Assembly (NCBI GenBank): GCA_024279715.1
Contig: JAJRRH010000135.1
Coordinates: forward strand, 1-39,416
Direction: 5' to 3'
Source of the DNA: Bacteroidota bacterium
GTDB lineage: Bacteria > Bacteroidota > Bacteroidia > Flavobacteriales_D > JABDKJ01
DNA: 39,416 nt
Each line of letters starts with the position of its first letter. Position 1 is the first letter of the stretch. Made by a program: the position numbers and the translations under genes. Shown here piece after piece: positions 29,093-30,412 of this stretch. The notes beneath the pieces were generated by a model. It worked only from the letters and a program-made list of their open reading frames with translations. It was not told the origin of the DNA and searched no databases.

Positions 29093-30412
29093 TTATGTAA
29101 ATAAATTAATAGAGCTAGCACCGGCACTCTTTGGAGCACGACGTTGATCCATCATAATGGTTTGTTTTCTGTCTGGCCCTACAGATACAATACTTATTGG
29201 TGTCTCTAATTCACGTTCAAGATAAGTGATATATTCATACATTTCAAGCGGAAGGTCTTCTGCATCTGATAGCCCTGTAAGGTCAGTTTTCCAACCTTTC
29301 ATTTCGATATACACTGGTTCTAGATCCATGTCATTCGCCTCAAAAGGAAGGATGTCAATTTTTCCGTCTTTAGTATTGTAGTGCGTACAGATTTTGATGG
29401 TATCAAAGGTGTCCATTACATCAGCTTTCATCATATTTAGATGGGTGACACCATTGATCATTATGGCATATTTCAGAGCAGGTAAATCTAGCCATCCACA
29501 TCGTCTTTCTCTACCAGTAGTGGCGCCATATTCATGTCCTAAAGCTCTTAATTTCCCTCCTGTTTCGTCAAATAATTCGGTTGGAAAAGGACCTGATCCT
29601 ACTCGGGTGCAGTATGCTTTGAAAATACCATATACATTGCCAATCTTATTTGGGGGGATTCCAAGGCCGGTAGATGCGCCAGCCGCAGTGGTATTGGATG
29701 AGGTGACGAACGGGTAGGAGCCAAAGTCAATATCCAATAACGATCCTTGTGCCCCTTCAGCGAGTACTGCTTTGCCATTTCGAAGGGCATTGTTGATGTA
29801 ATACTCACTGTCTATTATCTGAAATCGTTGTAGGAATTCAATCGCTTCTAGCCACTTGTTTTCCTCTTCTTGTATGTCATACTCAAAGTCCTACATGCTG
29901 AGCAAACGTTTGTGTTTTTCTACAAGCTGACTATACTTTTCTCGAAAATTCGGAGAAAGTATGTCGCCTACACGCAATCCATTTCTTCCTGTCTTGTCCA
30001 TATAAGTAGGACCAATGCCTTTGAGGGTAGATCCTATTTTTAATTTACCCTTGGCAGCTTCAGATGCAGCATCCAGAACTCTATGGGTAGGTAATATGAG
30101 ATGTGCTTTTTTTGAAATCAATAAGCGATCAATAACCGGTACATTCATTACCTCCAAAGCATCTATTTCTTTCTTGAAAATAATAGGATCGATAACGACA
30201 CCATTGCCCACAAGGTTGATGATTCCCTCACGAAATATGCCGGAAGGAATAGTATGTAGAACGTGTTTGATGCCCTCAAATTCTAAAGTGTGACCAGCAT
30301 TTGGACCCCCTTGAAATCGAGCGATAATATCGTATTTTGGGGTCAGGACGTCAACGATTTTTCCTTTGCCCTCATCTCCCCATTGGAGCCCTAAAAGTAC
30401 ATCTGCTTGCAT
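29093..30412 (-). pseudogene. purA: Adenylosuccinate synthetase, reading frame interrupted by one in-frame TAG (29891-29893)
   Basis: N-part 'LLGLQWGDEGKGKIVDVLTPKYDIIARFQGGPNAGHTLEFEG...GIGPTYMDKTGRNGLRVGD' and C-part 'AVLAEGAQGSLLDIDFGSYPFVTSSNTTAAGASTGLG...HEYGATTGRERRCGWLDL' lie in the same frame with no indel. Total 440 codons including the final stop. Confidence 0.93.

Follow-up and report, generated by a model that had tools for sequence, protein, structure and literature searches.

The purA gene, which encodes adenylosuccinate synthase on the minus strand (30412-29093, 440 codons) of the window (the whole 39,416-nucleotide stretch of DNA that was analysed), is interrupted only once, by an amber codon (TAG) at codon 174 (29893-29891). 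This codon can with considerable confidence be attributed to a defect in the draft assembly at base level, either a consensus error or a captured minority variant, in an ordinary functional gene. We read the amber as an artefact because the gene is otherwise intact, the stop is unique among relatives, and breaks of the same class occur elsewhere in the assembly. Although the purA record contains the stop, the organism's functional gene most likely does not: a sense codon, probably one for tyrosine, would most likely occupy codon 174 there and allow a normal full-length PurA to be made. A sense codon would also be expected in the sequencing reads at 29891-29893.

The preliminary description of this DNA, made from its letters alone, had reported two open reading frames (ORFs) lying in one frame, separated by a single amber codon and free of any other lesion, and both translation and family profiles bear this out. 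The two ORFs (30412-29891 and 29737-29093) share a common minus-strand frame, and reading the TAG as X yields a 439-residue protein with no further stop or frameshift. This X-containing protein matches the adenylosuccinate synthase family NF002223 of NCBIfam over residues 1-423 with 557.4 bits, against a cut-off of 402, and the match to PF00709 breaks exactly at the stop (Table 1). The family match is thus continuous but for this one codon, an arrangement beyond chance. Overall, the gene resembles members of the PurA family (NF002223 / TIGR00184 / PF00709) in matching along its full length above the curated cut-off and in sharing ~67-72% identity with its best relatives, its relatives being Bacteroidetes, whereas it differs from them in that the assembled sequence lacks a single uninterrupted reading frame. 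From what is known of the family, a truncated PurA without the 265 residues that follow the stop, which comprise most of the conserved enzyme, is unlikely to function.

Table 1. Positions of purA and its parts in the window.
Feature	Coordinates	Strand	Basis
purA, adenylosuccinate synthase, full length except for one internal TAG	29093..30412	-	ORFs, family profiles
In-frame TAG, codon 174	29891..29893	-	Alignment of relatives
purA N-terminal part, 173 codons, PF00709 positions 1-169	29894..30412	-	Profile match
purA C-terminal part, 265 codons, PF00709 positions 175-416, first ATG/GTG/TTG is the TTG at 29737	29096..29890	-	Profile match

Codon 174 sits in a variable, non-catalytic stretch between conserved motifs. 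None of 109 aligned relatives has a stop at this position; the residue is Tyr in 52, Phe in 15, Met in 11, Val in nine, Leu in nine and His in six, with a few others or gaps. A Tyr codon becomes TAG through one third-position change and, since Tyr is the commonest residue here, a single base change is enough to account for the stop, in keeping with the earlier suggestion that a change from TAT or TAC to TAG fits the local sequence. Moreover, no internal stop was reported in the purA of any other genome when 40 genomes were searched, 39 of which had a match to the gene. The one relative without a match, together with two that possess only fragments, is consistent with gaps in draft genomes. Three other genomes represented the same family in these comparisons, all of them from another genus. 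In the literature, no report of an amber-containing purA was found.

The assembly, which is apparently a metagenome-assembled genome (MAG), comprises 207 contigs and 2.36 Mb and is 71.6% complete, the window being contig 167. A base-level survey covered ~757 kb of the 2.36 Mb; three of its contigs (C3, C50 and C110; L159, L186 and L192) consist entirely of N. Unrelated single-base breaks were found in other essential genes of the same assembly. For example, groEL carries an in-frame TAA at codon 58 (C2:33229; L145:13229), first flagged by a hexamer scan, at a site occupied by Glu in 15 of 15 compared relatives. This groEL, the only Cpn60 copy found in the assembly, scores 868 bits against TIGR02348 and lies in its normal position after groES. 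In another example, a reference-based scan showed that cysC, encoding APS kinase, is split by a frameshift of the one-base type (L181:11665-12197; C137, ~51665-52197), such that one frame matches the APS_kinase profile as far as position 53 and another frame from position 55 onward. The broken cysC is followed by a cysD-like sequence. Finally, a TAA at C195:7221 (L154:7221), between two strongly coding halves of 619 and 122 codons, is a candidate that probably adds another such lesion to those in purA and groEL; the interrupted protein has no family match in Pfam or NCBIfam. Candidate stops in L138, L140 and L152, and in a minus-strand match of L154, look on reading like ordinary gene junctions and were rejected. 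Most of the antisense "stops" of one scan were likewise discarded as shadow matches of purA, and later scans took the best frame only.

Against an assembly defect, only two nonsense codons and one frameshift are firmly established, and genuine mutations, if rare, could likewise give rise to these lesions. Frame disruptions confined to single genomes have been ascribed to errors of sequencing or to new mutations (PMC3711429). The purA lesion is similar in being restricted to one genome and in having both halves match one family; it differs in being a nonsense codon and in coming from a draft, the published cases being frameshifts in complete genomes. Sequencing error, the first of the options that the preliminary description named without preferring any, is the best supported, given the prevalence of Tyr at the site and single-base breaks elsewhere that extend to the sole groEL.

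How often such breaks occur can be approximated from the survey. Among ORFs of 250 codons or more, a stop arises from 4.7% of single substitutions, and two to three nonsense codons (two firm, one probable) in 622 kb of long ORFs suggest ~0.7-1e-4 errors per base, a crude figure of wide uncertainty that reflects detected cases only and counts purA itself. A rate of this order would be plausible for a thinly covered short-read assembly. It corresponds to perhaps one break per at least six windows of 39 kb, so that one such case among many windows is to be expected. A single-contig relative, G005, showed no in-gene nonsense codon in ~238 kb aligned, while the window's own genome, scanned in the same way, gave both the purA stop and the frameshift in cysC over 210 kb. 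Three flags raised in the G005 scan were dismissed, two of them falling in one alignment of 31% identity and the third at a poorly matched alignment edge. In a second relative, the nominally 100%-complete draft G001, the sole groEL (C60:2641-4146; L303) also contains a TAA, at a codon different from that in the window's own genome, so these stops do not form a conserved signal. The TAA of G001 sits inside a locally divergent stretch. Also against an assembly defect, overall quality is not grossly poor, the window and the aligned genes being for the most part intact. As a caution, before recoding or pseudogenisation is proposed for a lone stop in an essential gene of a draft built from mixed DNA, the stop should be weighed against how frequently such breaks occur throughout that assembly.

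Other explanations would accept the stop as real. If it were read through, or decoded by a suppressor tRNA, full-length PurA would still be produced, and purA would provide an unusual instance of an essential enzyme made through suppression. The complete conservation of the half downstream of the TAG fits with this, but readthrough is very improbable: TAG and TAA are ordinary terminators in the genome, TAG closing 99 of 367 long ORFs, which upholds the earlier view that TAG is an ordinary stop and that reassignment of the code is unlikely. The stop is also absent at the site from all relatives compared, where recoding or suppression would have it retained. A search for a tRNA with a CUA anticodon, which the preliminary description had proposed, found none among the ~21 tRNAs recovered from the genome, an incomplete set in a 71.6%-complete assembly, and none in G001. 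Moreover, the other interrupted essential gene, groEL, has TAA, and one amber suppressor would not cover both. It is exceedingly improbable that essential genes of this organism really contain amber and ochre codons and that an unrecognised suppressor, its gene lying in sequence missing from the assembly, reads them through. Hardly any probability attaches to an enzyme whose two chains are produced separately and then associate, another of the earlier options. Family motifs are kept in both halves, yet no ATG, GTG or TTG occurs in frame after the stop before the TTG at 29737, which lies within the conserved QGSLLDIDFG motif; translation from there would begin inside EGAQGSLLDIDFG and lose 51 residues of the conserved region. 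In addition, all relatives with a complete purA match encode single chains.

A recent, real nonsense mutation is less likely than a consensus error or minority variant; recoding and a split enzyme are both very unlikely. PurA would then have been lost in the lineage or in a sub-population, with AMP supplied by salvage or by a purA outside the recovered bin. We regard this as unlikely. The record does contain the stop, and no decay is seen in the rest of purA, as a recent mutation would give; the ~28% of the genome that is missing leaves room for a second copy. The earlier call to look for another purA has been answered only within this incomplete assembly, where none was found. Similarly, apt was not detected in the assembly, a weak point given its incompleteness, and two relatives possess apt above the cut-off. 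Loss of PurA compensated by salvage or a hidden copy cannot plausibly cover the stop in the sole groEL. The intact purB of the genome also speaks against such a loss, although this is weak evidence since purB acts in earlier purine steps too. Apparent purB "stops" in three relatives turned out to be its natural stop at the C-terminus, past which the alignment had run.
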